Of a DNA stretch of 64,000 nucleotides, positions 21,783-62,820 are shown one piece after another. A program made the translations under genes and the position numbers. This DNA is from Bacilli bacterium (lineage in GTDB: Bacteria; Bacillota_I; Bacilli_A; RF39; UBA660). Positions within the stretch are counted from its first letter, which is position 1; every line of letters begins with the position of its first letter. The stretch is taken from positions 1-64,000 of the forward strand of contig JAFWMN010000010.1 of the NCBI GenBank assembly GCA_017513865.1, given 5' to 3'. The notes below the pieces were generated by a model. It did not search any database and had not been told where the DNA came from. It was given only the letters and a program-made list of their open reading frames with translations.

Positions 21783-24700
21783 TTACGAAGTATATGTACA
21801 TCCAGTTAGTTTAACTTGATTGATATTTAATGAAGCGTTTGATTTGTGATTTAAATATTCAAGTAGTATATAATAATTTCCTGTTAAACTTGCAGGTATT
21901 GATAATGTCCCACTGCCCGTATATCCATTGGTTAAAGTCATATTAATCTCTTTATGATATGTTGTACCATGGGAAAAGCTATCTATATTAGTATTAATAC
22001 CAAAATAATAATATCTTTTTGGGGTTACAGAATAATTATTATTTGTGCTCCATACACTACCACTTGCGCTTGAATATAGGCCACAATATTTTGATATATC
22101 ATATGTCTTAGCTGAAGTTGCCTGCCCCCTATAATCACCAGTATTAGTTCCAGCATTGAAATAATAAAATTTACTTGAACCACTGGTGTTATAATTAAAT
22201 GATAGTACAGATGCATGTGTTTTTGTCATACTGAATGTTGTATCCCTTGTTCCGTCAGTATTTAAAATCATTTTATCATTGTATTTGTATGTTGGATGAA
22301 TAACTACTGCATAATCTGGCATTGTAAAAGATTTTGTAGAAGAGTTTAATGTGGCTACTGTTGTTTTGCCATCTGAGCTTTTTACGGTAGCACCTTGATA
22401 GGTAAATCCTGATACGTTAGGTACAGTAAATGTTACTGTTGTATTTTTAGCTGCTGATGTAACATTTGGCACGACAGCAGATCCGCTTCCTACTGTACTA
22501 TTGTAAGTTGAACTAACTCTATTTTGCCCTGTTGTTGATATAAATTTATAAAACTGTGCATCACTATTATTACAAGTATAACTCTGGATATTAGTACCAT
22601 TGGCCATCGTTCCGCTTTTTACATCCATACATAGTCCAGTATAAGTTTTAATATTATAATAATTAGATTCTCCATTTGCAAGCGACCATCTTTCTCCATT
22701 TCCTGTTCCCCATGCATATGTTTGAATATTGTTTCCGGATTCAGCAGAATTACCTGCATTATCTATAACTTGTGTGCTATCTACTTGATTTTCTATATGG
22801 TAATAAACTACACCATCTATTATATTATCTGGAAGCATTTTAAATTTTTGAGCATTGCTCCCATTATCTTTATAAAGTTCTATATTAGTACCATTAACAG
22901 CTTTTCCACCTGTAACATCAACAACAAATGTGTTATCTTTTTTAGATACTATCTTATAAGTTGCGTTTGTTGAATTATTTCCAATGAAATTAGCTTTTAA
23001 ATCAACTATTTCAGAAGTTTCTCCAGTAACAGCTATATTGTATGAATATAAGCTTTGTGATGTATTGTTTCCTAGGCTTAAAGTTCCACCTACGGTAAGC
23101 GAACCATTATTATTATATATTCCACCACCATTATTGGTTGCCTTGTTATATACAATATTTCCACCTGTTATATTGGCTACAGCATTACCTCCCATATATA
23201 ATCCACCACCGTGAGTCGTTGCGGTATTATTAGAAATAGCACCTGCTGTCATATTGAAATTTGCATAATATCCTAAATGTATTCCACCACTTAATCCGCT
23301 TGATGCGTTGCCTCTAATTGATCCTGAATTTATATTAATAGTGCTATAACTTTCTTCTGTCCCGTCTTCACCGATTATAGCTCCACCAATTAATCCAGAA
23401 TTATTTTTAATAATTGCTCCATTGACATTAAGTATAGAGCCTGGCTTAATACTTAGTGCCCCTCCTCTGGCATTTGTTTTGTTATTTTGTAGTGTCGTTT
23501 TTTTGTTTAAAGATATTATTGAATTGTCAACTACTATCATTGTATCGCTATTGGTAATATTGTTTCCATCAATTGTGATGTTGTTTATATTTAAATTTCC
23601 AGATGTAATATTTATTATGTTGTCTAAGTTGGAATTTGCTCTAGTAACTTTGTTTATTATTTCTGTTCCAGTATCTCCATTGCTATCGCTGCTTGTTATA
23701 GTGATTGTTTTGTTAGAGTCCATATTCACTGTTGATGCTTGTTCAATATTATTCATGACATATATTGTTGCATCTGTTGTTGATGACGCTGATGAATATG
23801 CTTTATTTATCGTCGCGTATGGTTGTGATACTGTTCCTACTCCTGTAGTATCATTTCCATTTATTGATACATATAAATCAGTTTTTCTTAAATTGTATAT
23901 TGAATTTTCAGTACTTGTTCCGTCTGTTACTTTAGCTTCCACTATTCCATCGGTTCCAAGTGGTAATGTTACTGAACTTGTTGTTACTGGAACTTCTTCA
24001 CTATCATCTAGTTTATAACTACATGAGTATGGACTAGAACAGCCTGTAGGGTATGTAATTACTGCTTCCCCCGATACATTTTCGCTAAACGTTGGTGCTT
24101 CTATCGTTTTTGTTATTACTGAAACTGTTTCTGTAATATTGTTATTGCTTTCACTTGTTAATCTTATTCTTATTTCATAGTTCGTTTCTGGTTCTAGATT
24201 TGTGAATGTATACATGTTAGGTGATATATTTGGATTTGCTTGTGTTACCCATGTTTCTCCATGGTCTATCGAATATTCATATGTTACGATATCGTCTCCG
24301 TTTGGTACATATGCGTCTACTATTAATGTTATGGTGTCTGTTGTTGATTGTGTGGTTTTATTTGTGATTATTGGTGATGTACTAACTGTAAAATATCCTT
24401 TTTGACCTGTTTTATCTATTTTTGCATATGTTTTATCTATTTTACTTGTGTCATATGCTGTTCCATTACCTCCAACTAATACTGTATCTCCCAAAAACAT
24501 ATTTGTAGAATCAGTAACATTTGTAGTCACATAGTCTTCTGATGCATATATTGTTGTTAAGCTTGTACAATTTCTAAACATGCTATTCATATTTGATACA
24601 ATATCTGTATTAAAATTATTTAAATCAATGTTTGTCAAACTAGTGCAATTATAAAACATATATTCCATAGTTGTTACACTATTTGTATCAAAATTACTTA

Positions 24701-27700
24701 TGTCTAAATTAGTTAAGACTGAACACCCATTAAATAAATGACTCATGTCCTTTACTTTGCTCGTGTCAAAATTACTTAGATCTAAACTTGTGAGTTTTGT
24801 CCCACTAAACATTGAACTCATATTTGTAACGTTACTTGTATCAAAATTGGTTATATCTAATTGGGTTAAATTTGTACATCCATTAAATAGTGCGCCCATA
24901 TTGGTGACAGCATTTGTATTAAATGAATTTAAATCTAAACTTGTTAAGCTGCTGCAGTCTCTGAACATACTGCTAATGCTTGTAGTATTGCTTGTATCAT
25001 AATTATTATTAAAGCTTATAGAAGTTAAGGCAGTAAAATTTCTAAATATATGAGCTGAATTTTCATTTGCTATTACGCCATCTTCTCCGCCTATATGTAA
25101 AACATAGCCACTATTTCCATCACTTACTACCCATGCCATTACATTTCCAGTATTCATAATAGCTGATACATCCCATGAAGCTATGACGTTTTGAGGGATA
25201 TTTGTATTATTTTCAAATATTATGCTTGTTATACTGTTTTTATATTCACTTGAATGAAAATCTGTTGTATCACTTGCACTCCAACTTTTAATTACTGGAT
25301 TCGTTTCTGCTATTTTGCAATTATTATATTTAGTCACACCACTTATGCCACTATTTATATACATGTCTGTCGTAGTTGCATTTTCTGTTGTCCAATCAGA
25401 ACCCACATATACTACCTGTAAATTTGTAGTTCCATTGAACATGTTATTCATGTTTGTTACGCTACTAGTATCAAAATTACATAATGTAAGAATTTGTAAA
25501 CTACTATCTCCGCTAAACATGCTATCTAGCCTTGTTACATTACTAGTATTAAAATTAGACAAATCTATATTTGTTAAGCTTGTACAGTTGGCAAACATCG
25601 AGCCAATATGGGTTGCACTACTAGTATCAAAACTGCTTAAATTTATGCTGCTTAATGCTGTATTTCCTTTAAACATAGCTCCCATATTGGTTACATTACT
25701 TGTATCAAAATCCGATAAATCTAAGGAAGTTAAACTAGTACATCCTTTAAATATACCTTCCATTGTTGTAGCATTGTTCGTATTATAATTTCCATTAAAG
25801 TTTATCGAAGTTATTTCTGTAAATCCATCAAATAATCTTGCGGAATTTTCGTTTGCTATCACGCCACCTTTTCCACCTATGTGGAGTACATATTTTGTAT
25901 TATCATTTTGATCTGCTGTTACCCAGGCCATTACTGTTCCTGTGTTTGGCGTTGCTGATACATCCCATGAGGTTGCACCTGATGGTACATTTGTATGATT
26001 TTCAAATACTACGCTTGTTATAGATGATTTATATTCACTTGCATGGAAGTCTGCTGCTGCATTTTGATCCCAGCTTTGTATTACTGGGGAGTTTGCTGCT
26101 ACTGAACAATTTGTAAGTTGTGTTACTGAACTTACTCCACTTTGACTAAACATACCTGTTGTTGTAGCTCCAGATGTATCCCATCCGGTTCCTACGAAAA
26201 TTGCTTGCATATTGCTTGTAGTTCTAAACATATAACTCATGTCTGTTGCTGCACTTGTATCAAATGTACATAGTTTTAAAGTTGTGAGGATATTACAATT
26301 ACTGAACATATACGACATAACTGTTACATTGCTGGTATCGAAATTGCTGACATTTAAATTGGTTAAACTGGTGCAGTTATTAAACATGTATCCCATACTT
26401 GTTACATTACTGGTGTCTAGGGTACTTAGGTCTAGATTGTCGAGACAGTAGCATTGTTGAAACATAAACGACATAATATTAGTTGATGCTGTAGAATGAC
26501 TCCATCCTGCTCCAAAGGTTATGCTTGCTAAATTAGTGCAATTATTAAACATATATGTCATACTTGTTACATTACTGGTATCAAATGTACTTAAATTTAA
26601 ACTGGTGAGACTTGTACAATAATAGAACATATGTGCCATAGTATTAGTTGATGCTGTGGCATGCCCCCAGCCGGTTCCAAATGTTATACTAATTAATCCT
26701 CTGCAATTATAAAACATGCCTTGCATACTTGTTACATTGCCAGTATCAAAAGTACTTAGATTTAAACTAGTCAGGCTACTACATCCATAAAACATATGGT
26801 ACATACTTGTTACATTACTGGTATCAACGTTGTTTAAATTATTTAAAGTGGTGAGACTGCTACAGCCTTTAAACATTTCCCACATTTTGTTACTTTCTGC
26901 TGTAACATTATTCCAGCCTGTTCCAAAGGTTATTGTAGTAAGTCCTGTACAGTCAGAAAACATTTGCTGCATGCTTGTTACTTTGCTGGTATCAAAAGTG
27001 CTTAAATCTAAGCTGGTGAGGCTTGTGCAGCCAGAAAACATTCCCCCACTACCTGTATTACTTCCCATCGCTGTTACATTACTAGTATCTATACTGCTTA
27101 GATTATTTAAAGTGGTTAAGGCGCTACAGTCGGCAAACATACCTGCCATATTATTACTTGCTGCTGTGGCATTTCCCCATCCTGATCCAAAGGTTATTGT
27201 AGTAAGTCCTGTGCAGTCAGAAAACATATAGTACATACTTGTTACATTACTGGTGTCAAATGTACTTAAATCTAAACTAGTTAAACTAGTGCAATTTCTG
27301 AACATGTATTGCATATTATTGGTTGATGCTGCCGGATGACTCCAGCCAGTTCCAAAAGTTATACTTGTTAAGCCGGAATCTCCAGAAAACATAGATGACA
27401 TAGTTGTTACTTTGCTGGTATCAAAAGTGCTTAAGTTTAAGCTAGTTAAGCTAGTACAATTTTGGAACATATATGACATGTTTATTACATTGCTGGTATC
27501 AAGATTGTTTAAATTATTTATTGTCGTTAAGTTGCTGCAATTGTTGAACATATACGACATATTATTGGTTGATGCTGTACTATTACTCCATCCGGAACCA
27601 AAGGTTATACTTGTTAAGCCTGTGCAGCCAGAAAACATATAGGTCATACCTGATACTTTACTAGTATCAAAAGTACTTAAATCTAGGCTAGTTAAACTAG

Positions 27701-29897
27701 TACAATTTCTAAACATGTATCCCATACCTGTTGTCCTGGTTGTATCAAAATTATTTCCAAAGGTTACGCTTGCTAAGTTTGTATAACCATCAAATAAATA
27801 TGTTAAACTGGTATTAGCTATGACACCGCCATCTCCACCAACGTGTAGAACATATTTAGTATTGTCATTTGGATCAGCTGTTACCCATGCCATTACAGCT
27901 CCACTGTCTGTTACTGCAGACACATCCCAGTTAGTTGCCCCATTTGGGATGTTTATATTATCTTCAAACACAATAGATGTTACATCTGTCTCAGCTATTC
28001 CTGAACTACCTATTAATATATTTGATGATGATGTGCCTGATGTTTTTAATACTGGTAATAATTTAGCTTTTGCTGTTAGGGTTACTGCGCCTGTAGCTGC
28101 ATATGTTCCTTCAGAATCTCCTACTTTTGTATCTCCATCAAACCAACCTAATGCTTCATAGTTTGTACTTGGATTTATTTTTGGTAAAGGTACATCTACT
28201 GATGAAGCATTATTTCTAATTGTTTTTGAAACGCTGGTTGATGTTGGACTGATAGATGATACTCCTGTTCCTTTTGCATATGTTATGGTAAAAGTTTTAT
28301 ATGTTATCGCATACCAAGTACTTCCTGTATTACTACTATTTAATGTTAATTTTTTAGTTGATGTACTATAACTTGAATTATTTGTTGTAGCATCTGCTGT
28401 TGTGTTAAATCCTGTTATTGTAAATCCTTCTCTTGTGATTGTTGGGGCATCTACGGTACAACTTGAATCTTGTGATGCTCCATTATATGCTGCTGCTATA
28501 GTACAGTTTGAAGCTGATGTACTTGATAGGCTTGCTCCATTCGCATTCCAACTTGCTGTTAATTGTACTGATGCTTTTTGTGACTGAGCATACAAACTTC
28601 TATTTGAACTCATCGATAAACTATTTACTACTTGTCCTGATGTATAACTTGCTGTTCTATTATCTGCTGCATCTGACCATCCTATTACATCTGGTGTTGC
28701 ACTTGGTGCGGTTATTGTTGGCATAGTGAAGCTTGCTGAACAGCTTGTAGCTTGTGCAGCTCCATTATGTACTTCTGGTGTCGTACATACTGTGATTGTT
28801 CTTGATGTTCCAGTTGTCGTTGTTCCTCCATGGATAAAGTTTGTATTACTATTCCTATAGAATGTGATTGTTCTATCTACTCCTGCTTTGGTACTTTGCG
28901 CATACCATGTTGCATCGGCTGATACATTTTTAGCTGTATTGTGGGTCCAATAATTACTATAGACTGTTGGCCCAGTTGAATATCCATCAATACTAAATCC
29001 ACTTGCCGCTACCATTGTTGGCGCGGTTACACTACAGCTTGCATCTTTATTCCATAATGTACATGTTCTTGTTACTGTTTGTGTTGTTACTGCTGTTCCT
29101 GAAGCATTTGTTTGGCTTGTATTTCCATTTTTATCAAATGTTATGGTTACATTTTTACTATATATTGCATACAAAATTGTATTGGCAGTCATTGTTGTTG
29201 TAGAAAGTCCTGTATGTGCATTCTTATCGGTATTCCATCCAACAAATGTATATCCGGCTTTAGTGGCTGCTTTTCCACTTAAGTTTACTACTGTTCCTTC
29301 AGCCAAGTATTCGTTTTCAGCATTTGTACTTGTTCCTCCATTTTCCCCATAATCATATGTTAGTAAGTATCTTGTTTCTGTTGGGATATTTGATCCTTCG
29401 TCTTGAACATATTGGAATTCTACTATAGATGTTCCTGATACTTCTGCTGTTCCATTATAGTTTGGATTATACTCTATTTTTACATGTATTACTTTATCTT
29501 GCCCTTTGGCTAGAGTCTCTCCTTTTGTATAACCAGAAAAAGTAATAATGACTGCTTCATTACTACTTGGCGTTGTTATTATATTATCTAATTTGGCATC
29601 GAATGTTCCTCTATTTGATATCGTTACATCGTAATCCATCGCTGATCCTTTATCATATAGATTCGCTTCCATATAGGCTGTTAAGTCGGTCCATGTTGGA
29701 GTACTTACGTTTTCAGCATCTCCGGTTGCAACTCCGGTTGTTACATTAGTTATTCTTACATCCCAATTACTTGTTATTCTACTTGTTCCTCTTATTGTTA
29801 GGCTTGTTTGGAATGCGGCATATCCTACTGAAATCATAAGTAATAATATGAGCAAACTACCTATTATTATTTTTCTATTTTTTCTAGCTCTATACAT
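21783..29897 (-). CDS. giant secreted BspA-like repeat protein
   Basis: A single 2704-residue frame. In order: a basic start and hydrophobic helix (residues 9-28) ending GYAAFQT, with a following strand domain like TasA/camelysin proteins to about 170; InlB/Listeria-Bacteroides-type repeats (GYTFVGWNTDKN) and related modules to about 640; three BspA/DUF285 leucine-rich blocks (about 700-1220, 1345-1490, 1605-1815); a fibronectin type III-like domain near 1835-1930; a GGGxxxN-rich beta-helix near 2000-2300; a ricin B-like lectin domain near 2310-2460; and a C-terminal sandwich-like domain. There is no LPXTG anchor. The make-up points to an adhesin or host/mucus-binding surface protein. Each DUF285 unit carries the xxMFxxCxxLTSLDLSTFDTSxVT pattern. 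A promoter with 17-bp spacing precedes it. Confidence 0.9.
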   Translation of the reverse strand: MYRARKNRKIIIGSLLILLLMISVGYAAFQTSLTIRGTSRITSNWDVRITNVTTGVATGDAENVSTPTWTDLTAYMEANLYDKGSAMDYDVTISNRGTFDAKLDNIITTPSSNEAVIITFSGYTKGETLAKGQDKVIHVKIEYNPNYNGTAEVSGTSIVEFQYVQDEGSNIPTETRYLLTYDYGENGGTSTNAENEYLAEGTVVNLSGKAATKAGYTFVGWNTDKNAHTGLSTTTMTANTILYAIYSKNVTITFDKNGNTSQTNASGTAVTTQTVTRTCTLWNKDASCSVTAPTMVAASGFSIDGYSTGPTVYSNYWTHNTAKNVSADATWYAQSTKAGVDRTITFYRNSNTNFIHGGTTTTGTSRTITVCTTPEVHNGAAQATSCSASFTMPTITAPSATPDVIGWSDAADNRTASYTSGQVVNSLSMSSNRSLYAQSQKASVQLTASWNANGASLSSTSASNCTIAAAYNGASQDSSCTVDAPTITREGFTITGFNTTADATTNNSSYSTSTKKLTLNSSNTGSTWYAITYKTFTITYAKGTGVSSISPTSTSVSKTIRNNASSVDVPLPKINPSTNYEALGWFDGDTKVGDSEGTYAATGAVTLTAKAKLLPVLKTSGTSSSNILIGSSGIAETDVTSIVFEDNINIPNGATNWDVSAVTDSGAVMAWVTADPNDNTKYVLHVGGDGGVIANTSLTYLFDGYTNLASVTFGNNFDTTRTTGMGYMFRNCTSLTSLDLSTFDTSKVSGMTYMFSGCTGLTSITFGSGWSNSTASTNNMSYMFNNCSNLTTINNLNNLDTSNVINMSYMFQNCTSLTSLNLSTFDTSKVTTMSSMFSGDSGLTSITFGTGWSHPAASTNNMQYMFRNCTSLTSLDLSTFDTSNVTSMYYMFSDCTGLTTITFGSGWGNATAASNNMAGMFADCSALTTLNNLSSIDTSNVTAMGSNTGSGGMFSGCTSLTSLDLSTFDTSKVTSMQQMFSDCTGLTTITFGTGWNNVTAESNKMWEMFKGCSSLTTLNNLNNVDTSNVTSMYHMFYGCSSLTSLNLSTFDTGNVTSMQGMFYNCRGLISITFGTGWGHATASTNTMAHMFYYCTSLTSLNLSTFDTSNVTSMTYMFNNCTNLASITFGAGWSHSTASTNIMSFMFQQCYCLDNLDLSTLDTSNVTSMGYMFNNCTSLTNLNVSNFDTSNVTVMSYMFSNCNILTTLKLCTFDTSAATDMSYMFRTTSNMQAIFVGTGWDTSGATTTGMFSQSGVSSVTQLTNCSVAANSPVIQSWDQNAAADFHASEYKSSITSVVFENHTNVPSGATSWDVSATPNTGTVMAWVTADQNDNTKYVLHIGGKGGVIANENSARLFDGFTEITSINFNGNYNTNNATTMEGIFKGCTSLTSLDLSDFDTSNVTNMGAMFKGNTALSSINLSSFDTSSATHIGSMFANCTSLTNIDLSNFNTSNVTRLDSMFSGDSSLQILTLCNFDTSSVTNMNNMFNGTTNLQVVYVGSDWTTENATTTDMYINSGISGVTKYNNCKIAETNPVIKSWSASDTTDFHSSEYKNSITSIIFENNTNIPQNVIASWDVSAIMNTGNVMAWVVSDGNSGYVLHIGGEDGVIANENSAHIFRNFTALTSISFNNNYDTSNTTSISSMFRDCSSLTSLDLNSFNTNAVTNMGALFNGCTNLTQLDITNFDTSNVTNMSSMFSGTKLTSLDLSNFDTSKVKDMSHLFNGCSVLTNLDISNFDTNSVTTMEYMFYNCTSLTNIDLNNFNTDIVSNMNSMFRNCTSLTTIYASEDYVTTNVTDSTNMFLGDTVLVGGNGTAYDTSKIDKTYAKIDKTGQKGYFTVSTSPIITNKTTQSTTDTITLIVDAYVPNGDDIVTYEYSIDHGETWVTQANPNISPNMYTFTNLEPETNYEIRIRLTSESNNNITETVSVITKTIEAPTFSENVSGEAVITYPTGCSSPYSCSYKLDDSEEVPVTTSSVTLPLGTDGIVEAKVTDGTSTENSIYNLRKTDLYVSINGNDTTGVGTVSQPYATINKAYSSASSTTDATIYVMNNIEQASTVNMDSNKTITITSSDSNGDTGTEIINKVTRANSNLDNIINITSGNLNINNITIDGNNITNSDTMIVVDNSIISLNKKTTLQNNKTNARGGALSIKPGSILNVNGAIIKNNSGLIGGAIIGEDGTEESYSTININSGSIRGNASSGLSGGIHLGYYANFNMTAGAISNNTATTHGGGLYMGGNAVANITGGNIVYNKATNNGGGIYNNNGSLTVGGTLSLGNNTSQSLYSYNIAVTGETSEIVDLKANFIGNNSTNATYKIVSKKDNTFVVDVTGGKAVNGTNIELYKDNGSNAQKFKMLPDNIIDGVVYYHIENQVDSTQVIDNAGNSAESGNNIQTYAWGTGNGERWSLANGESNYYNIKTYTGLCMDVKSGTMANGTNIQSYTCNNSDAQFYKFISTTGQNRVSSTYNSTVGSGSAVVPNVTSAAKNTTVTFTVPNVSGFTYQGATVKSSDGKTTVATLNSSTKSFTMPDYAVVIHPTYKYNDKMILNTDGTRDTTFSMTKTHASVLSFNYNTSGSSKFYYFNAGTNTGDYRGQATSAKTYDISKYCGLYSSASGSVWSTNNNYSVTPKRYYYFGINTNIDSFSHGTTYHKEINMTLTNGYTGSGTLSIPASLTGNYYILLEYLNHKSNASLNINQVKLTGCTYTS
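24500..27790 (-). repeat. DUF285/BspA leucine-rich tandem repeats in the giant gene
   Basis: About 19 units of 23-26 codons lie in the first block (about 26,230-27,790), five in the second and six in the third. Each block is headed by a similar module of about 100 codons containing SWDVSA...VMAWV...YVLHIGG..GVIAN. In block one a longer-period unit marked ITFGxGW recurs six times, with 165-255 bp between copies. Confidence 0.85.
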
Positions 29898-39514: not shown

Positions 39515-41590
39515 TTATTTTTCTTTTATTATATCACAATTATTTTTAATATCGGTTTCTTTTTGATTATATACTATTAATTTGTGCTGGGCTCTTGTGC
39601 ATACAACATAATAAAGTCGCTTTTCATTTTTATCATAATAATTCTCAGCATCTGTATAAACTATTACTCCATCAAATTCTAAACCTTTTGAAATATATGA
39701 AGGTAATATAACAACATTTCCCATTTTATTATCTGTACTATCTTTAACAACTGTTATTTCCTTTATTTCTTCTTTTAATAATTCATATAACCAAGCTGAT
39801 TGCTCATCATCCTTAGTAATAATGGCAATTCTTTTAATATTGTTTTTTCTCATTTCTTTTATATCAAATTTAAGATTTTTTTTGGCTTCAGATTGTTTTA
39901 TTTCCTTACACTCTACAGGTTCATTATTAGCTCTTCTAACGGCGCACGTATTTGATAAATCAAGAATTTCATTTGTGTAATCAATAATTTCTTTGCTTGA
40001 TCTATATGTTTTATTTAATTGAATTTCTCTTCCTTTATTATCAAATACACTATTTATTTTATTTAAATCTTGGTATACATAATAAGGATTTATGCTTTGA
40101 TTTATGTCCCCTAATATTGTAAATGAAGCAGTTTTAAATATTTGCTTTAAAATTTTATATTGTAATAAAGTGTAATCTTGAGCTTCATCTATTACAACCT
40201 GTTTGATGTGGTTATTATTTGGATACCCATTTATTTCAAAGAAAATGTACATTAGAGGTATTAAATCTTCATATCTTAAAATTTTATTTGTGAGCTTATT
40301 ATCAAAATTATTTGTTTTTTCTTTGAACTCTTTGGAGTCAATTATTTTGTTATATAAGTCTTTAGCGTTTAGTTTATTTTTTATGAGGGTATTTAAGCCC
40401 TTTTTTATGATTGCTCTATTTTTTTTGTATGCCTTTCCTGTTATATCACATATATACTCTATCATTGCTTCTATTCTTTCTTCTACAGGAAGTTTATGAA
40501 ACTTTTCTTTAAATAATTTTTCTAGTTCTTTTGCTGAAAACTCATAACTACCTACTATCAAATTATCGGAAAAATATATATTATCTTTATATTCTTTTAT
40601 CTTTTGGTCCAGCAATTCTATAAATTCGTCAGAAAGTTTATATTTGATAATTTTAATCTCATTTTCATCTTTAATTTTATAGCATCTTTCTATAAATTTT
40701 GGAAAACTTTCGATATTTTTGTTTTTAATATATCTTTTGGCGAAATCACTAAATGTTGTTTCCAAGACATTTTCTTCACCTAGTTCTGGGAGCACTCTAG
40801 AAATGTATTCTGAAAAAACATCATTTGGTGATAATATCAAGATATTGTTTGAGGTTAAATCTTTCTGCTGAAATAATAAATAAGCTATTCTATGTAATGC
40901 GACAGCCGTTTTGCCACTTCCGGCAACGCCTTGGACAATCAAATATTTATCGTCGACATTTCGTATAATTTTGTTTTGCTCTTTTTGAATTGTATTTACT
41001 ATGTTTGTCATTTTTTCGGATGAAGATTTTGATAGTATTTCTTGCAAAAAATCATCATCGATATTAATGTCACTTTCAATTATTCTTTGAATTTCTCCAT
41101 TTACAATTTTATACTGCCTTTTTAATGATATTTCACCTTCTATTGTGCCTCTAGGTGCTTCATATTCTGCTTTACCTTTTCCATAGTTATAAAATAGGCT
41201 AGCTATTGGAGAACGCCAATCAAAAACGTAGAAATTGTAATCTTTTGATATGCCGGTTATTCCTATGTAAACCTTTCTATGCTTATTCTTTCTAAAATCG
41301 GCAGTGAAATCTACTCTACCAAAGTATGGAGTTTTCGATGCTTTTTTTAATTTTTGGAGTTTTAAAACTTTATCATTGGCGTGGTCAACTTTTTTGTTAG
41401 CTTCATACATATCATTTTCTATTTCAACTTCATCCCCACTACCAATATTTTCCCATATATATTTTTTTAATTCATATATTGAATTTGTCACTTCTTCTAA
41501 ACTTCCATTTTCCTCTTCAATTAATTCTTTTATAGTTTTTAATGTTTTTTCTAGATATTCTTTTTCGTCAATAATTACCCTATTATCCAT
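39515..41590 (-). CDS. helD: HelD-family RNA polymerase-associated ATPase (copy 1)
   Basis: A 691-residue superfamily 1 protein. It starts with an antiparallel helical arm (about 1-65), then a GRIDF-containing domain with YIGITGISKDYNFYVFDWRSPIASLFY, Walker A GVAGSGKTAVALHR near 222, DEAQDY near 470 and motif VI VVCTRAQHKLIVY near the end. This is the HelD layout, not UvrD or Rep. HelD proteins dissociate stalled RNA polymerase from DNA, and in actinobacteria a relative protects against rifamycins. It is about half identical by eye to the copy at 44,885-46,843. It follows a terminator, so may be transcribed apart. Confidence 0.87.
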   Translation of the reverse strand: MDNRVIIDEKEYLEKTLKTIKELIEEENGSLEEVTNSIYELKKYIWENIGSGDEVEIENDMYEANKKVDHANDKVLKLQKLKKASKTPYFGRVDFTADFRKNKHRKVYIGITGISKDYNFYVFDWRSPIASLFYNYGKGKAEYEAPRGTIEGEISLKRQYKIVNGEIQRIIESDINIDDDFLQEILSKSSSEKMTNIVNTIQKEQNKIIRNVDDKYLIVQGVAGSGKTAVALHRIAYLLFQQKDLTSNNILILSPNDVFSEYISRVLPELGEENVLETTFSDFAKRYIKNKNIESFPKFIERCYKIKDENEIKIIKYKLSDEFIELLDQKIKEYKDNIYFSDNLIVGSYEFSAKELEKLFKEKFHKLPVEERIEAMIEYICDITGKAYKKNRAIIKKGLNTLIKNKLNAKDLYNKIIDSKEFKEKTNNFDNKLTNKILRYEDLIPLMYIFFEINGYPNNNHIKQVVIDEAQDYTLLQYKILKQIFKTASFTILGDINQSINPYYVYQDLNKINSVFDNKGREIQLNKTYRSSKEIIDYTNEILDLSNTCAVRRANNEPVECKEIKQSEAKKNLKFDIKEMRKNNIKRIAIITKDDEQSAWLYELLKEEIKEITVVKDSTDNKMGNVVILPSYISKGLEFDGVIVYTDAENYYDKNEKRLYYVVCTRAQHKLIVYNQKETDIKNNCDIIKEK

Positions 41591-41652: not shown

Positions 41653-42534
41653 CTAGTCACTAATCTTTAGGGCATCATCAATTAGTTCTTTTATTTTATT
41701 TAAATAATCATTGTTGTTGTTTTTTTTATTCATCAAATAAAAATGTAGTAAACCATTTATATAACACCATTTTAATTTCTGCTTATCATAGGTATTAGAA
41801 CTTCTATACCCTCTTAAAAATTCTTCTATTTCTTTTCTTTTATTCATAAACTTTTGTCCAGGTCTTAAAATAAGAGCCCAAGCTATGTCTTGTTCTTTAA
41901 ATCCCATCCCTGAATATTCCCAATCTAATATAGCTGTGATTTCATAATTTTTCCAAAAAATATTTCCATAGTGAAAATCACCATGAATAAATGTATTATA
42001 AATTATTTCTTGTGGTTTATTTTCTTTTAAGTAATTTATTATATTTTTTTCCCATTCATCAAAATTTTTATAATCCTTTTTCTTAGGATAATCATTAATT
42101 ATTCTTATTTTGGCTTTATCACAAGCTATATTAAGTTTGTGTATTTTGGCTAAAGCCAAACCATAATTGTATAGATATTTTTCTTTGTTTGCATTATGAT
42201 TTTCTTTAAATATATCTGATAGTTTTTCACCATGCATTTTTTCCATCACTATATAAACATGTCCATCATGTGAGCCACTTTCCAAAATTTTAGGGACAGG
42301 CATGTATTTATCTATCTTTGGTAACACTTTTATTTCATTAGAAAAATTAGCAAAACTACCTCTTTCACTTTTGAATATAAAATTTTTCTTTTCGCTTTTA
42401 TATTTCCCGAGGCAATCAAATACATCATTTCCTGCAGGTGGATAACTAATTATTTTTTCAATTTCAATATTTTTAAACTTTATTTCATTTATATCTACTA
42501 GACTTTCGCGCCATTTTTCTTGTATTTTTGCCAT
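41653..42534 (-). CDS. aminoglycoside-phosphotransferase-like kinase
   Basis: A 293-residue kinase-fold protein. The catalytic loop FIHGDFHYGN (HGDxxxxN) lies near residues 184-193, the metal-binding DWEY segment near 203-206, and the N-terminal lobe has YVVMEKMHGEKL-like (HVYIVMEKMHGE) sequence. Relatives phosphorylate aminoglycosides, choline or other small hydroxyl compounds. The gene starts 1 nt after the PP2C gene ends, with its AAAGGAG site inside that gene, so the two are translationally coupled. In this cluster its target may be a peptide or precursor, which is a guess. Confidence 0.78.
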   Translation of the reverse strand: MAKIQEKWRESLVDINEIKFKNIEIEKIISYPPAGNDVFDCLGKYKSEKKNFIFKSERGSFANFSNEIKVLPKIDKYMPVPKILESGSHDGHVYIVMEKMHGEKLSDIFKENHNANKEKYLYNYGLALAKIHKLNIACDKAKIRIINDYPKKKDYKNFDEWEKNIINYLKENKPQEIIYNTFIHGDFHYGNIFWKNYEITAILDWEYSGMGFKEQDIAWALILRPGQKFMNKRKEIEEFLRGYRSSNTYDKQKLKWCYINGLLHFYLMNKKNNNNDYLNKIKELIDDALKISD

Positions 42535-42535
42535 T

Positions 42536-43381
42536 TTATTTTCTCCTTTTTATCTTACCTATTATTGATGCATTATCTTTTCCAGCTTGAATCATTTCAT
42601 AATAATCTTGCGATTTGATTGGACAATGTGAATTTTCAGATAAAGCTATATTAATAATTTTTGATGGTATTTGATCAAACGTGTTACTTGAAATTATACT
42701 ATTTAAAGTACTATCTGAAACACAATCTGTAATACCGTCTGAAAACAAATATAATTGATTCATTTTTTCAATATCTATTTCATAAAAATCAAGAGTTAAT
42801 AGCCTTTTTTCGCATCCTAATCTTGATAGTATTAAATTGTTTTTTTTATGAAATCTCATATGTTCTTTACTTGTAATCATACCATCATCAAGTAATTTTT
42901 GGGTTACTGATTGATCTTTTGTCACTTGTATTAATTCATTATTGTCATAGATATATGCGCGTGAGTCACCAATGTTAGCAATTAAAACAACATCTTCTAA
43001 GAGAAAAGCTGTGACTAGTGTTGTACCACCATCTCCACATTTTATTCTTATCAAATCATCTAACTGTAAAACAAATTTTTCATATTCTTTTTTTAAACTA
43101 TTAATACTATTTAATTTTTTTAATGATTGAAACCAAACAAGACTATTTGTGGCCGCAAGATTACTAGCAAAGGCTCCATTATTTAATCCACCCATGCCAT
43201 CAGCAATAAGCAATATTTCATTATTTGGATATAGTTTGTGCTTTGAAATAAGAAGTGAATCTTCCTGTTTTTTTCTAATGTTTCCTCTGTCCATTAGCGC
43301 TATCACTGAATTAAAACTGTATTCTCTTCTTTTATAATTTTGCTGACAATTATTTAACAAATCATGTTCACAAGAATTCAT
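42536..43381 (-). CDS. PP2C-family Ser/Thr phosphatase
   Basis: A 281-residue metal-dependent phosphatase. The acidic metal-binding motifs are complete: RGNIRKKQEDS near 33-43, IADGMGGLNNG near 60-70, NIGDSRAY near 138-145, FSDGITD near 216-222 and GKDNAS near 268-273. It lacks a membrane segment, so it acts in the cytoplasm. It lies 9 nt after the radical SAM gene and 1 nt before the APH-like kinase, a phosphatase-kinase pair in one unit. The N-terminal 15 residues with two Cys are unusual. Confidence 0.85.
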   Translation of the reverse strand: MNSCEHDLLNNCQQNYKRREYSFNSVIALMDRGNIRKKQEDSLLISKHKLYPNNEILLIADGMGGLNNGAFASNLAATNSLVWFQSLKKLNSINSLKKEYEKFVLQLDDLIRIKCGDGGTTLVTAFLLEDVVLIANIGDSRAYIYDNNELIQVTKDQSVTQKLLDDGMITSKEHMRFHKKNNLILSRLGCEKRLLTLDFYEIDIEKMNQLYLFSDGITDCVSDSTLNSIISSNTFDQIPSKIINIALSENSHCPIKSQDYYEMIQAGKDNASIIGKIKRRK

Positions 43382-43390
43382 TTTACCACT

Positions 43391-44659
43391 TTATCTAAAT
43401 ATATGAAGCATGCTGGTCATTTCAAATGGTCGGCATTGTTTTTTACATGTTTTACATTTTTTTAAAATACATCCTCCATAACAGTCAGGAAGTTGTTTAC
43501 AGTTAATACATTTTTTGTCATTAAATGCCGACATGGCGTTTTTAGACCAATAAACATTTTTTCTAGGATCAATAACAATTGAACCATCATCTAAAATTTG
43601 GCCTATTTTAGCCTTATCATAGTTTAAATCATTAATACACTTCCAGACACTTAAATCAGGCATTAAGTAGAAAAATTTATCATCGGCGCAAGCTTCACAG
43701 CTTTGATATTGAAAACTTTCTTGAAAAATTTCAAATCCAAGTTCTTTACCCATGTCAAAATAGTCATCAATTTGTGAATTGTTATTTTTATTCTTATCTT
43801 TGTATGCATGGGTATTATATACAGACCTTATAAGCAAATTTACTTTACTTCGATATTTAGGATTAATATATTCCAATGATTCTCTTACTTTTTTTACAGT
43901 TGTATTTGAAAGATTTATTCGCAAAACGAATTTAAAATCTTTCTTGTTTTTAGTTTTATTTATTATCATGGATATTTTTTCAATTAGCAAATCAAATGAT
44001 GGTTTTCCATTTTTAAACCTTCTAGTCAAATCATGAGTTTTTTTATCAGAGTCGATTGTTATTTGCAGCATTCGCAAATCATTTTCTAACAGGCCATCTA
44101 GTATTTTTTCTGTTAATAATGAGCCATTTGTTACAATTGAGGTAAAATATTTATAATTGTTTTCTTTAGCATCTTTTTTTACCCAATCTAAAAATTCTAT
44201 ACATTGTTTGGCAAATAATAGTGGTTCCCCGCCGAATAAACTAATTTGAATACATTTATAATTTTTAAAATTTTTTTTAGCAAATTTTTTTAGTGCTGAA
44301 AAATATTTTTTTATGTCCTCACTACCACATTTTAAATCTTTTTCAAAACAGTATGGGCATGAAAAATTACAGGCTAATGAAGGAACTAAAACTATGTTAA
44401 AAAAGGTTTTATCATAGTATTTTTTTTCATACATGTATTTTATTTCGGAAAACTCGTCACGATCTTCATCAATAATGAACCCGTTTCTTATTAAAATGTT
44501 TTTTGTATTTTCATCTAGTTTATTAAATTCATCTATATCCTCAAAAGCTTTTGTTGATGATCCTTTTTCTAAAAATATATTAGCTTTTGTATATGAATTA
44601 TATACAATAATTTTATCCTTATATTCTTTTACTATGTTATAATTACTAATTTTATACAT
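43391..44659 (-). CDS. radical SAM/SPASM peptide maturase
   Basis: The start is the ATG at 44,659 (MYKISNYNIVKEY) with AAGGTGGTAAT upstream; a longer frame to 44,737 would run through the hairpin and into the peptide gene. The protein of about 422 residues has an N-terminal PqqD-like/RRE-type region (1-85), the radical SAM motif CNFSCPYC near 96-103, FGGEPLLF near 150, and a SPASM-like C-terminus with many Cys (CKQLPDCYGGCILKKCKTCKKQC). Such enzymes install thioether or C-C links on ribosomal peptides. The 40-residue gene just upstream is its likely substrate. Confidence 0.88.
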   Translation of the reverse strand: MYKISNYNIVKEYKDKIIVYNSYTKANIFLEKGSSTKAFEDIDEFNKLDENTKNILIRNGFIIDEDRDEFSEIKYMYEKKYYDKTFFNIVLVPSLACNFSCPYCFEKDLKCGSEDIKKYFSALKKFAKKNFKNYKCIQISLFGGEPLLFAKQCIEFLDWVKKDAKENNYKYFTSIVTNGSLLTEKILDGLLENDLRMLQITIDSDKKTHDLTRRFKNGKPSFDLLIEKISMIINKTKNKKDFKFVLRINLSNTTVKKVRESLEYINPKYRSKVNLLIRSVYNTHAYKDKNKNNNSQIDDYFDMGKELGFEIFQESFQYQSCEACADDKFFYLMPDLSVWKCINDLNYDKAKIGQILDDGSIVIDPRKNVYWSKNAMSAFNDKKCINCKQLPDCYGGCILKKCKTCKKQCRPFEMTSMLHIFR

Positions 44660-44679
44660 ATTACCACCTTCTGAAAAAG

Positions 44680-44698
44680 GGTGAACACTTTCACCCTT
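44680..44698 (-). terminator. attenuator-like hairpin between precursor peptide and maturase
   Basis: On the minus strand GGGTGAA pairs with TTCACCC around AGTG, 5 nt after the peptide stop codon. It ends in only a short T-poor run before the maturase RBS, so partial read-through is likely. Confidence 0.65.
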
Positions 44699-44702
44699 TT
44701 TT

Positions 44703-44825
44703 TTAACATTGACCGTTACCTGTACAACCACAAGCATCTAATAAAGAATTAGCAAGAGTCATTTTTTCATTGTCATTCAAATCCATGACACTGTTTTTTG
44801 CTTCATTAACTTTAATTATTGCCAT
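44703..44825 (-). CDS. RiPP precursor-like peptide, 40 residues
   Basis: The frame is 41 codons including stop, with AGGAGG nine bases before the ATG. A leader of about 31 residues (MAIIKVNEAKN..., then DNEKMTLANSLLDA) precedes a core CGCTGNGQC with Cys at 32, 34 and 40. The composition, size and place directly upstream of a radical SAM/SPASM gene are those of ribosomally made, post-translationally modified peptides. The three-Cys core would fit thioether links to alpha or beta carbons. No export or protease gene was seen. No known precursor family was recognised; the peptide is called from context. Confidence 0.8.
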   Translation of the reverse strand: MAIIKVNEAKNSVMDLNDNEKMTLANSLLDACGCTGNGQC

Positions 44826-44848
44826 ATACCGTAACCTCCTTTAAATTT

Positions 44849-44877
44849 ATGATAATATACATGTTATTAAAAGTCAA
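44849..44877 (-). promoter_or_regulatory. strong promoter of the RiPP precursor gene
   Basis: Minus-strand TTGACT (44,872-44,877) and TATCAT (44,849-44,854) with a 17-bp spacer in the 59-bp gap after the HelD gene. Confidence 0.8.
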
Positions 44878-44884
44878 TAAAAAT

Positions 44885-46843
44885 TTATTTGTTATATACT
44901 ATAAGCATGTGCTGGGCTCTTGTGCAAACAACATAAAAAAGTTTTTTTTCATTTTCACTGTATTTATTGTCAATATCGTTGTAAGAAATTACAGCATCAA
45001 ACTCTAAACCTTTGGCAGCATATGATGGTAAAATACTGACATGATCTTTTTTAATACTGTTTTTTATAACTGAAAATTGGGTATTTTTATTTAATTTGTT
45101 ATATATCTTATTTGTTTCTTTCATGTTTTTAGTTATAACAGCAATTGTTTTCATTTTATTTTTTCTTAAATAATTTATGTCATCAGTTATTTCTTCTATC
45201 TTTTTTACGTTTTTGACATTAACATTAAAACCATTTGATTTTCTTACAGCGCTTGCGTTATTAATATTTAAAATTTGATTAGTAAAATTAATAATTTCTT
45301 CGCTTGATCTATATGTTTTATTAAGCTCTACAAACTTTGGATTTGTTTTAAATATTTCTGCTATTTCTTTTAATGAACTATAATTATTATCTGGATTAAT
45401 ACTTTGATTTACATCTCCTAGTATTGTGAAATAGGCATAAGGAAAAATTTTTTCCAATATAGAAAACTGTAATTTACTGTAATCTTGAGCTTCATCAACC
45501 ACTACATGTCTTACTTTGGTATTATATGGATAACCATTAAGTTCAAAAATTAAATAAATTATATATTCTAAGTCATCATAATTTATTCTTCCAATTACTT
45601 TTCTTTCATCGTTTGTATATTCTAAGAACATATTATAAATTGATATCGGATTTGTTTCTATTTTTAAATCATTAATTATTTTTTTATATATTTTATTTTT
45701 GTTAATTTTATATGAAACATTTAATCTGTTACAAATATATTCTGTTAGATTTTTTATTCTTTCAAAATAAGGTAATTTTTCATATTTTTTTATTAGTAGA
45801 TTGTTTAGTTCAAATCTGTTAATAGACATATTATTAATTATGAAGTCTTTTGTAAAGATATAATTTGAAGAATAATACTTAATAAATTCATCTAACTTGC
45901 TTTTTAGTTCGTCTTGATTTTTTACCATGGTATTACTTTCATATTTTCTTTCTAGGAAAGATGAAAAATCTTCTGTTTTTTCATTATTTAAATACTTTTT
46001 AACTAGTTCATTAAACGTTGTATTTAAAACATTTTCCTCCCCTAATTCTGGTAAGACACTTGATATATATTCACTAAAGATATTGTTTGGAGAAAATATA
46101 AGAATATTATTATAATTTAATTCTTTTTCCTTATATAACAAATAGGCAATTCTATGTAATGCGACTGATGTTTTACCACTTCCGGCAACTCCCTGAACTA
46201 TTAAACATTTATCTTTAGTATTTCTAATTACCTCATTTTGTTCTTTTTGAATTGTTGTAACGATATTTTTCATTTTTTCCGAAGAATTTGATGATAGTAT
46301 TTCTTGTAAAATATCATCATCAATATTAATATCGCTTTCAATTATACGTTTAATTCTTCCTTCTTCAATTTTATATTGTCTTCTTAAGGTAATTTCGCCT
46401 TTTATTTTTCCCATTGGTGCTTCATATTCAGCTTTACCGATGATATTATCATAAAATAAGCTAGAAATTGGAGCACGCCAGTCAAAAATATAATTTTTGT
46501 TATTTTCTAACAAACCATACGTCCCAATATAAACATTGTATGTTTCTTCTTGAGTTTTAAAATCTATTCTTCCAAAATAGGCACTGTCACATATTTTTTC
46601 ATATTTTAATAGTTTTTTTACTTGATTTTCGGTTTTATGTACTCTGGAATTTGCTTCATTTAATATGTCACTATATTCAAGTTCATTCATTGAACCACTT
46701 TCGGTCCAAATAAACTTTTTAAATTCGAAAATCTTTTCTTTTTCTTTTAAAATATTTATATTAGTTTTTTCAATATGTTTGGTGGCTATTTGTTTTACTT
46801 TTTCTAAATATTTTTCTTCTTTTGTATACATATCGTTATTCAT
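44885..46843 (-). CDS. helD: HelD-family RNA polymerase-associated ATPase (copy 2)
   Basis: A 652-residue paralog of the copy at 39,515-41,590. It has the same helical arm, the GRIDF domain, Walker A GVAGSGKTSVALHR near 218, DEAQDY near 451 and motif VI VVCTRAQHMLIVY at the end. It is shorter by about 40 residues and lacks the tail after YNK. It lies directly upstream of the peptide gene and ends 59 bases before it. Two HelD genes around one peptide cluster is unusual and suggests an RNA polymerase link. Confidence 0.86.
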   Translation of the reverse strand: MNNDMYTKEEKYLEKVKQIATKHIEKTNINILKEKEKIFEFKKFIWTESGSMNELEYSDILNEANSRVHKTENQVKKLLKYEKICDSAYFGRIDFKTQEETYNVYIGTYGLLENNKNYIFDWRAPISSLFYDNIIGKAEYEAPMGKIKGEITLRRQYKIEEGRIKRIIESDINIDDDILQEILSSNSSEKMKNIVTTIQKEQNEVIRNTKDKCLIVQGVAGSGKTSVALHRIAYLLYKEKELNYNNILIFSPNNIFSEYISSVLPELGEENVLNTTFNELVKKYLNNEKTEDFSSFLERKYESNTMVKNQDELKSKLDEFIKYYSSNYIFTKDFIINNMSINRFELNNLLIKKYEKLPYFERIKNLTEYICNRLNVSYKINKNKIYKKIINDLKIETNPISIYNMFLEYTNDERKVIGRINYDDLEYIIYLIFELNGYPYNTKVRHVVVDEAQDYSKLQFSILEKIFPYAYFTILGDVNQSINPDNNYSSLKEIAEIFKTNPKFVELNKTYRSSEEIINFTNQILNINNASAVRKSNGFNVNVKNVKKIEEITDDINYLRKNKMKTIAVITKNMKETNKIYNKLNKNTQFSVIKNSIKKDHVSILPSYAAKGLEFDAVISYNDIDNKYSENEKKLFYVVCTRAQHMLIVYNK

Positions 46844-61218: not shown

Positions 61219-62820
61219 CTACTCACAGCCTGCGCTATCATTTTCAAGGACGTAGCAGCTCCAACTCGAAACGCTCCCGCCCACATAACCATCGCCATAA
61301 GTATAAGCATTCAAACCAGAGGCGCGACACGTATAAAAATTGCCGTAATCAGTACAAGCATTTGTTTCTGTAAAAGCAGTATTTAATGTTCCAACATTTA
61401 AATCATATATTGGTGTTATCCCTGATAATGATTCATCATGCCATCCAGTTAAACAATATTCAGTTCCTCCTTTTATAAAACATGCTTCTGCTCCTGTTAC
61501 TATATTACCTTCTACTGTATATCGTATACACACACTCTTGCCTGTTGCTGCACATGATCCATATGTTGTTCCTATATCTTGTAAAGTTGATGAATTTTTA
61601 GTAATTGTATTTGTATTAATTGCATATACCGTGTTTGAAGAGCCTCCACCGCCACCAGAGCCTCCAGAGCCACCACCACCAGAATTATTAGGACTAGTGG
61701 CTACTATTTGGAATTTTTTAGCACTTGTTCCAGCGCCTTTTAATACTGTATTAGATGATAAATGAAGAACTGGACGAACACCATAAGCTGATGTGTTTGA
61801 AGCTGTTGAATTTATAGATAAATTTGTAGAAGAGCAGCCAAATAAATAATAAGCATTAGAATTAGAGCGGGGAGATATTGTCCACTGTGAAGACGCCTTC
61901 CTTAAGTAATTATGTGATGCGCCATTATTATAACAATTTGTTGTGTTTCTATACGCATAAGCACCCGTGCAAGCGGAATTAGTGCTTGCTCTTACATATT
62001 CAGATACCGTTAGTAAGCCAACTCTACCTTTCCAAGTAAGCGCTTTTTCCTGGCTTATATCTGTAGCGGTTAACTGACCACTTGTGTTTGATACTAATCC
62101 TACATTATAGGTATGTTCATCTTCTATATAGCTTTCAACATTGCTATTTAAATTACTAGACCAAGTGTCATACCATCCTGTTACTGCAACATTTGCATAT
62201 GTTCCACCATTTAAATAGATATTTAAATATGCTTCATCATTTGGAAGATTATATGTTGTGCCATTTATTGCTCTGGCCATTTTAGCCCCACCAGCTGTAT
62301 TTTTAAGAAGGGTCCCACTAGAATCTCTCATTGTATCCTTACTTCCCCATACTTTACAGCCACTAGAATAATCATTGCAAAAATCAGTAGAAGAATATCT
62401 TGTTCCAACATCTGAACCACTTGCTGTTATACCGGAAATTGTCGAATTCCTTCCTGGATCAAACAAATTATTACCTAATGAATCTTCTCTTATTATTTTT
62501 AATGTATTATCTGATTCTATAGATACTATTCTCCATGTTTCATTATTTAAAGATAAGTAATTATCTGGTGATGCACCTTTATATACATATCTACCGGTCT
62601 CAGCAGTATCGGCATAAAGACCATCACCTGAAGTAACTGCCAAACTTTTTAACTGATTTACTGTGTATGTTGTGGCTGGTGTTACATTTCCTTTTGCTGT
62701 TAAAGATATATTTGTTTGAAAGGCTGCATATCCAATTGTAAGCACGGAAAAAAGGCCTAATACACCAAATATTAAGATTTTATTACTTATACCTTGTCTT
62801 CCTCGTCTAAATCTTCGCAT
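61219..62820 (-). CDS. secreted surface protein with GYAAFQT start
   Basis: A 533-residue protein with a basic start (MRRFRRGRQG) and hydrophobic helix (13-33) ending GYAAFQT, the same N-terminal motif as the giant protein. A central domain (about 70-370) contains NETWRIVSI and YGVRPVLHLSS, a fold seen in many secreted Bacillota proteins. A Gly/Ser linker (about 378-393) leads to a C-terminal Cys-rich domain ending CYVLENDSAGCE. The last 130 bases of the gene are markedly GC-rich. A GGAGG site precedes the ATG. An adhesin or spore/envelope surface role is likely. Confidence 0.7.
   Translation of the reverse strand: MRRFRRGRQGISNKILIFGVLGLFSVLTIGYAAFQTNISLTAKGNVTPATTYTVNQLKSLAVTSGDGLYADTAETGRYVYKGASPDNYLSLNNETWRIVSIESDNTLKIIREDSLGNNLFDPGRNSTISGITASGSDVGTRYSSTDFCNDYSSGCKVWGSKDTMRDSSGTLLKNTAGGAKMARAINGTTYNLPNDEAYLNIYLNGGTYANVAVTGWYDTWSSNLNSNVESYIEDEHTYNVGLVSNTSGQLTATDISQEKALTWKGRVGLLTVSEYVRASTNSACTGAYAYRNTTNCYNNGASHNYLRKASSQWTISPRSNSNAYYLFGCSSTNLSINSTASNTSAYGVRPVLHLSSNTVLKGAGTSAKKFQIVATSPNNSGGGGSGGSGGGGGSSNTVYAINTNTITKNSSTLQDIGTTYGSCAATGKSVCIRYTVEGNIVTGAEACFIKGGTEYCLTGWHDESLSGITPIYDLNVGTLNTAFTETNACTDYGNFYTCRASGLNAYTYGDGYVGGSVSSWSCYVLENDSAGCE

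Follow-up and report, generated by a model that had tools for sequence, protein, structure and literature searches.

A short gene and the radical SAM (rSAM)/SPASM maturase gene that follows it form a conserved pair at 12 loci from seven genera of one Bacilli family, and genes for a PP2C phosphatase, an APH-like kinase and a HelD motor belong to the same conserved operon, beyond the precursor and maturase that were first noted in a sequence-only reading of the window (the whole 64,000-nucleotide stretch analyzed here). The conserved pair and its operon suggest an unrecognised family of ribosomally made, modified peptides (RiPPs) linked to transcription. That the two genes encode a precursor and its maturase is practically certain; the chemistry and the target of the product are graded lower, as set out below.

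The precursor gene is conserved and under purifying selection

The frame translates to MAIIKVNEAKNSVMDLNDNEKMTLANSLLDACGCTGNGQC and carries the AGGAGG site attributed to it in the sequence-only reading (Table 1). Of the promoter of its own that was also proposed, the TTGACT-17-TATCAT site remains plausible, but a promoter scan of the region yielded no more sites than shuffled sequences, and the site is no better than background; TTGACN sites resembling it by eye were also present upstream of several homologous precursors. The proposed distance of 43 nt to the maturase gene holds with the maturase start at 44659 (MYKISN...), which is common to the homologs; a longer listed start at 44737 overlaps the peptide gene. 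A predicted hairpin follows the precursor stop in 12/12 intergenic gaps (−6.7 to −18.4 kcal/mol), with a U-run after most of them; a strict terminator scan did not call the hairpin of the window.

Table 1 Features of the peptide operon in the window, and distant loci with related maturases
Feature	Position	Strand	Basis
Precursor peptide, 40 aa, core L-D-A-C-G-C-T-G-N-G-Q-C	44703..44825	(-)	Conservation and selection
Ribosome binding site AGGAGG, 9 nt 5' of ATG	44835..44840	(-)	Sequence; AGGAGG before nearly all homologous precursors
Promoter-like site TTGACT-17-TATCAT	44849..44877	(-)	10/12 matches
Hairpin then U-run directly after precursor stop; proposed leaky terminator	44674..44701	(-)	Predicted
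Radical SAM/SPASM peptide maturase, 422 aa	43391..44659	(-)	HMM matches, Cys motifs, homologs
PP2C Ser/Thr phosphatase	42536..43381	(-)	Conserved active-site motifs
APH-like kinase	41653..42534	(-)	HGDFHY.N and LD.E motifs invariant
HelD RNA polymerase recycling motor, cassette 3' slot	39515..41590	(-)	NF041464, 502 bits (cut-off 419)
Second HelD, upstream of precursor, only in the window's genus	44885..46843	(-)	473 bits (cut-off 419)
Distant maturase and ABC-F loci	L046:3932-6846, L047:2660-5703, L048:8385-11235		

A search for the window maturase within the genus found it in five other genomes of 44 (72–81% identical), each with a precursor just upstream whose core reads DACGCTGNG[QYM]C, and profile searches added six copies from six other genera within the family, all with a precursor upstream of the maturase. 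The sequence-only reading had allowed for maturase homologs that lack a small frame upstream; the opposite was found, the frame being present at 12/12 loci with an invariant CxC-x5-C pattern, which the three Cys of the window peptide fit as described. The locus has the gene arrangement expected of a RiPP, a translated precursor gene with leader and core and an adjoining modifying enzyme, and the layout first proposed is borne out by the conserved frame beside the maturase at every locus.

Across the 12 loci the core is D-A-C-x-C-T-G-N-[G/D]-x-C, and nine residues never vary (Lys5 and, within the core, D, A, C, C, T, G, N and C), while the leader is divergent but keeps an N-terminal IxK motif. 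Identity between genera was 85% for the core, 33% for the leader and 56% for the maturase. RiPP cores usually vary more than leaders; this one is unusually fixed, so the precursor product probably has a fixed job. Nei-Gojobori counts among the genus copies gave pN 0.16 and pS 0.63 for the whole gene and pN 0.07 and pS 0.58 for the core; the precursor gene is under purifying selection. A degenerate DNA pattern for DACxCTGN occurred once each in the same 6/44 genus genomes as the maturase and was absent from the other 38, and a reversed control pattern had no match in the 44 genomes. The occurrence of the frame upstream of the maturase at 12/12 loci, the low pN/pS and this match between motif and maturase amount to more than chance and, judged by such comparisons, the 40-codon frame is a real, translated and selected gene. 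No named NCBIfam or Pfam family matched the peptide.

The maturase resembles thioether-forming enzymes of several families

The rSAM CX3CX2C and SPASM CX2CX5CX3C-gap-C motifs were present in 12/12 aligned maturases and the enzyme scored above the Pfam Radical_SAM cut-off, confirming the identity that had been given to this neighbour. Its best NCBIfam matches were RiPP maturases, aligned nearly end to end at only ~20–32% of the cut-off scores, in agreement with the earlier statement that no known family could be recognised. The closest solved structure by profile was CteB (5wgg). AlphaFold models of the maturase and the kinase, built from three sequences, were of low confidence (pLDDT 54 and 47); the maturase model agrees with CteB and also resembles TigE. 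The RRE-like N-terminus assigned to the maturase in the sequence-only reading stands as a putative feature, weakly indicated by the beta3-alpha3 pattern of this low-confidence model and by the near end-to-end alignment with RiPP-maturase HMMs. The enzyme groups with RiPP thioether maturases, although its scores stay below every NCBIfam cut-off for such families. At the maturase start of one sister copy (G041, L013:4904-4930) there is a frame break, either decay or an assembly error.

CefB (NF038107) and TIGR04463 were the best HMM matches, almost full length at 175 and 168 bits, but their cut-offs are 600 and 525, and the window core has three Cys in contrast to one Cys at every fifth residue. 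Clo7bot (TIGR04334) shares short Cys-rich precursors, an MKxxK-type start and a homologous adjoining rSAM/SPASM maturase; however, the window maturase scored 122 bits against a cut-off of 600, and the Clo7bot locus that we examined has seven annotated Clo7bot peptides with the differing leader MKFIKKPxKKFE and ABC transporters, and no HelD, PP2C or kinase, which places the window operon outside this family. SCIFF (CteA-CteB) is similar in its conserved core, in the Cys-Thr thioether chemistry and in CteB being the closest solved enzyme, whereas SCIFF peptides carry six Cys in 45 residues, compared with three in 40 here, and the TIGR03974 score was 60 bits against a cut-off of 425, so that membership is not indicated either. 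The invariant Asn-x-x-Cys spacing (N37-[GD]-x-C40 in 12/12) is that of the known acceptor-donor pair of NxxcA in NxxC RaS-RiPPs. Those peptides, in contrast, are streptococcal and tied to Rgg/SHP regulators, and the window core has two more Cys; on reading the listed cassette neighbourhoods we noticed no Rgg, and the host is not a streptococcus. The Cys23-Asn20 link of NxxcA and the Cys-Thr link of CteA have been described (PMC8326336). CteB joins Cys to Thr, whereas in the NxxcB reaction Cys is linked to the Asn that lies three residues before it.

A phosphatase, a kinase and HelD share the operon

The gene order precursor, rSAM/SPASM maturase, PP2C, APH-like kinase and HelD is conserved. PP2C and the APH-like kinase lie 3' of the maturase in every copy, and the metal motifs of PP2C are conserved among the copies; in G039 the contig is broken after the maturase, and the genes due next were found, in the usual order, at the end of a different contig (L029). 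The PP2C gene of G014 (L012:10613-11450) contains an internal frame break, which is decay or an assembly error. A literature search for rSAM RiPP clusters with PP2C found none. The kinase matches LanKC weakly, and a lanthionine route was rejected because there is no lyase or cyclase gene. The cassette contains no exporter or peptidase gene, which lends no support to a secreted antibiotic. Four genomes have the APH-like kinase on its own (L016:8649-9521, L017:8563-9447, L018:2897-3790 and L019:3472-4359), and in two of these NUDIX-like and acetyltransferase-like genes adjoin it. In G010 the solo kinase clusters with the kinase of the G021 cassette (99/98), pointing to partial loss or capture.

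Both cassette motors of the window scored above the curated NF041464 cut-off. The 3' HelD follows the kinase in 11/12 loci, G099 being the exception, and the upstream HelD is found in 6/6 cassette genomes of the window's genus. In five of these six (the window's genome, G014, G021, G039 and G041), the cassette HelD genes were the only ones found; the upstream type was also found without a cassette in G007 and G020. In the HelD tree, one clade unites the 3' HelDs of the five sister cassettes and a second one those of other genera, and the window's 3' HelD groups with the solo HelD of G004 (100/99), apart from the sister clade. The slot has therefore recruited or replaced its HelD more than once, and the fact that one position was filled repeatedly with proteins of a single kind speaks for a functional link. 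In the same tree the upstream HelD clusters with solo HelDs from the genus; it is therefore probably a resident gene, next to which the cassette either arrived or was lost. A HelD gene of G040 (L023:2-1759) is close to the upstream HelD of G021, lies beside the same kind of nrdG-like gene and is cut by the contig end; because of this kinship and the break, G040 may carry a cassette beyond the contig end. HelD enters RNA polymerase; the actinobacterial class has been described as target protection against rifampicin, and B. subtilis HelD also raises rifampicin resistance (PMC12802891, PMC10719064). Whereas known HelD (HelD/HelR) protects against a foreign drug, the cassette HelD sits inside a peptide operon.

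The operon is patchily distributed and changes neighbours

The maturase was present in ~2% of the family sample, the genomes being sampled metagenome bins, and samples of the order, class and phylum (385 to 395 genomes, E 1e-30 or 1e-40) contained no copy outside the family. Viral contigs searched with the peptide motif and the maturase profile gave none, and plasmid and phage records contained only maturases of 24–30% identity, the named ones of Clo7bot type. Near some copies there are a transposase, a TraG-like gene and restriction-modification genes, one copy (L011) adjoining type I restriction-modification genes, and others sit among ordinary genes; since the flanking genes differ among the copies, the operon moves or is rearranged as a unit. 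Elsewhere in the window (21783-29897), a 2704-codon open frame with a signal-anchor-like start resembling that of the 61219-62820 protein probably encodes a large surface protein.

Three distant maturases from the same bacterial family, ~26–31% identical to that of the window, each lie beside an ABC-F gene, whose best match was a ribosomal-protection-like ABC-F model at a score below its cut-off. At L047 a CTGND-type peptide, MKIVKKASVQNYNNISCTGNDCHCSNARCYAN, is encoded between the maturase and ABC-F genes, and L046 has a related CHCSN peptide.

Discussion

Taken as a whole, the observations are best explained by an rSAM-modified peptide operon whose product acts on transcription, with HelD as protection, an explanation that we hold with moderate confidence. 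Thioether chemistry on the core is likely, judging from the relatives of the maturase, and would make the product a ranthipeptide where Cys is joined to a beta or gamma carbon; the link of the peptide to RNA polymerase is more tentative. The start of the leader would be held by the N-terminal RRE-like domain of the maturase, which would link Cys thiols to the side chain of Asp30, Thr35 or Asn37, all three of them invariant. At least an Asn37-Cys40 link is predicted, Asn37-x-x-Cys40 being the likeliest site because NxxcB makes a Cys-Asn link at that spacing and CteB a Cys-Thr link. The hairpin after the precursor stop would yield more precursor than enzyme transcript. The product would act within the producing cell or on its close relatives, and RNA polymerase would be its target or partner; HelD would clear or shield the polymerase, and the kinase/phosphatase pair would turn either the product or its target off and on. 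That no exporter is encoded speaks for action in the producer, and the presence of two unrelated types of target protection, HelD and ABC-F, beside related maturases favours a product acting on gene expression. The absence of HelD at G099 and the occurrence of the upstream-type HelD and of the kinase without the cassette count against this explanation. The fullest version, a new rSAM peptide family on RNA polymerase with HelD target protection and kinase/phosphatase gating, in which the distant ABC-F-paired maturases hint at a ribosome-acting sister group, is rather doubtful.

The main rival is a ranthipeptide with a signalling or regulatory role, comparable to the SCIFF products of clostridia. 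Its core would be read by a receptor of the producer's own population and the response relayed by PP2C and the kinase, while HelD would be either a passenger or a factor in general stress. Conservation of the core far above that of leader or maturase, unlike an arms-race bacteriocin, and the lack of any conventional immunity or export gene fit such a role, as does the action of SCIFF-derived ranthipeptides in clostridial quorum sensing, where they affect sporulation genes. However, SCIFFs are widespread and this operon is patchy (6/44 genus genomes, ~2% of the family sample), and a passenger HelD explains neither the mixed HelD lineages in the 3' slot nor why both HelD genes of the window's genome sit at the cassette; we consider this reading unlikely, though worth keeping in view.

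A somewhat slimmer chance attaches to a peptide that is not thioether-linked, in which the three invariant Cys of CxC-x5-C would bind a metal or Fe-S cluster, or the enzyme would make another change (epimerisation, a C-C link or another bond). rSAM/SPASM enzymes catalyse a wide range of reactions, and the low-confidence model resembles TigE as well as CteB, but the closest families and the solved relative are Cys-directed thioether maturases, and the invariant Asp, Thr and Asn next to the Cys would be suitable acceptors.

It is improbable that the operon is an accessory anti-phage or abortive-infection module, whose peptide, kinase, phosphatase and helicase-like motors would sense infection and stop transcription. 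Its patchy, relocating occurrence, the copy beside type I restriction-modification genes and the weak resemblances between the kinase and PD-T4-6 defence kinases and between HelD and GajB would suit this role; in opposition, other copies lie among ordinary genes and none was found in viral contigs. A PADLOC defence system identity was rejected, the matches being at superfamily level only, and none of the defence systems known to us has a comparable RiPP precursor. A chance ORF beside the maturase, conceivable for 40 codons in AT-rich DNA, has next to no probability and is refuted by conservation at 12/12 loci, with strong purifying selection and nine invariant residues.

The operon of a modified peptide acting on transcription, as we prefer to read it, contributes a precursor-maturase family that has no name as yet, found in an uncultured lineage of Bacilli about which little is known, and its core is so fixed that it probably has a specific target. 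If the HelD link is true, the rescue motors of RNA polymerase would gain a peptide as native partner, and the peptide would be a new thioether scaffold acting on transcription.
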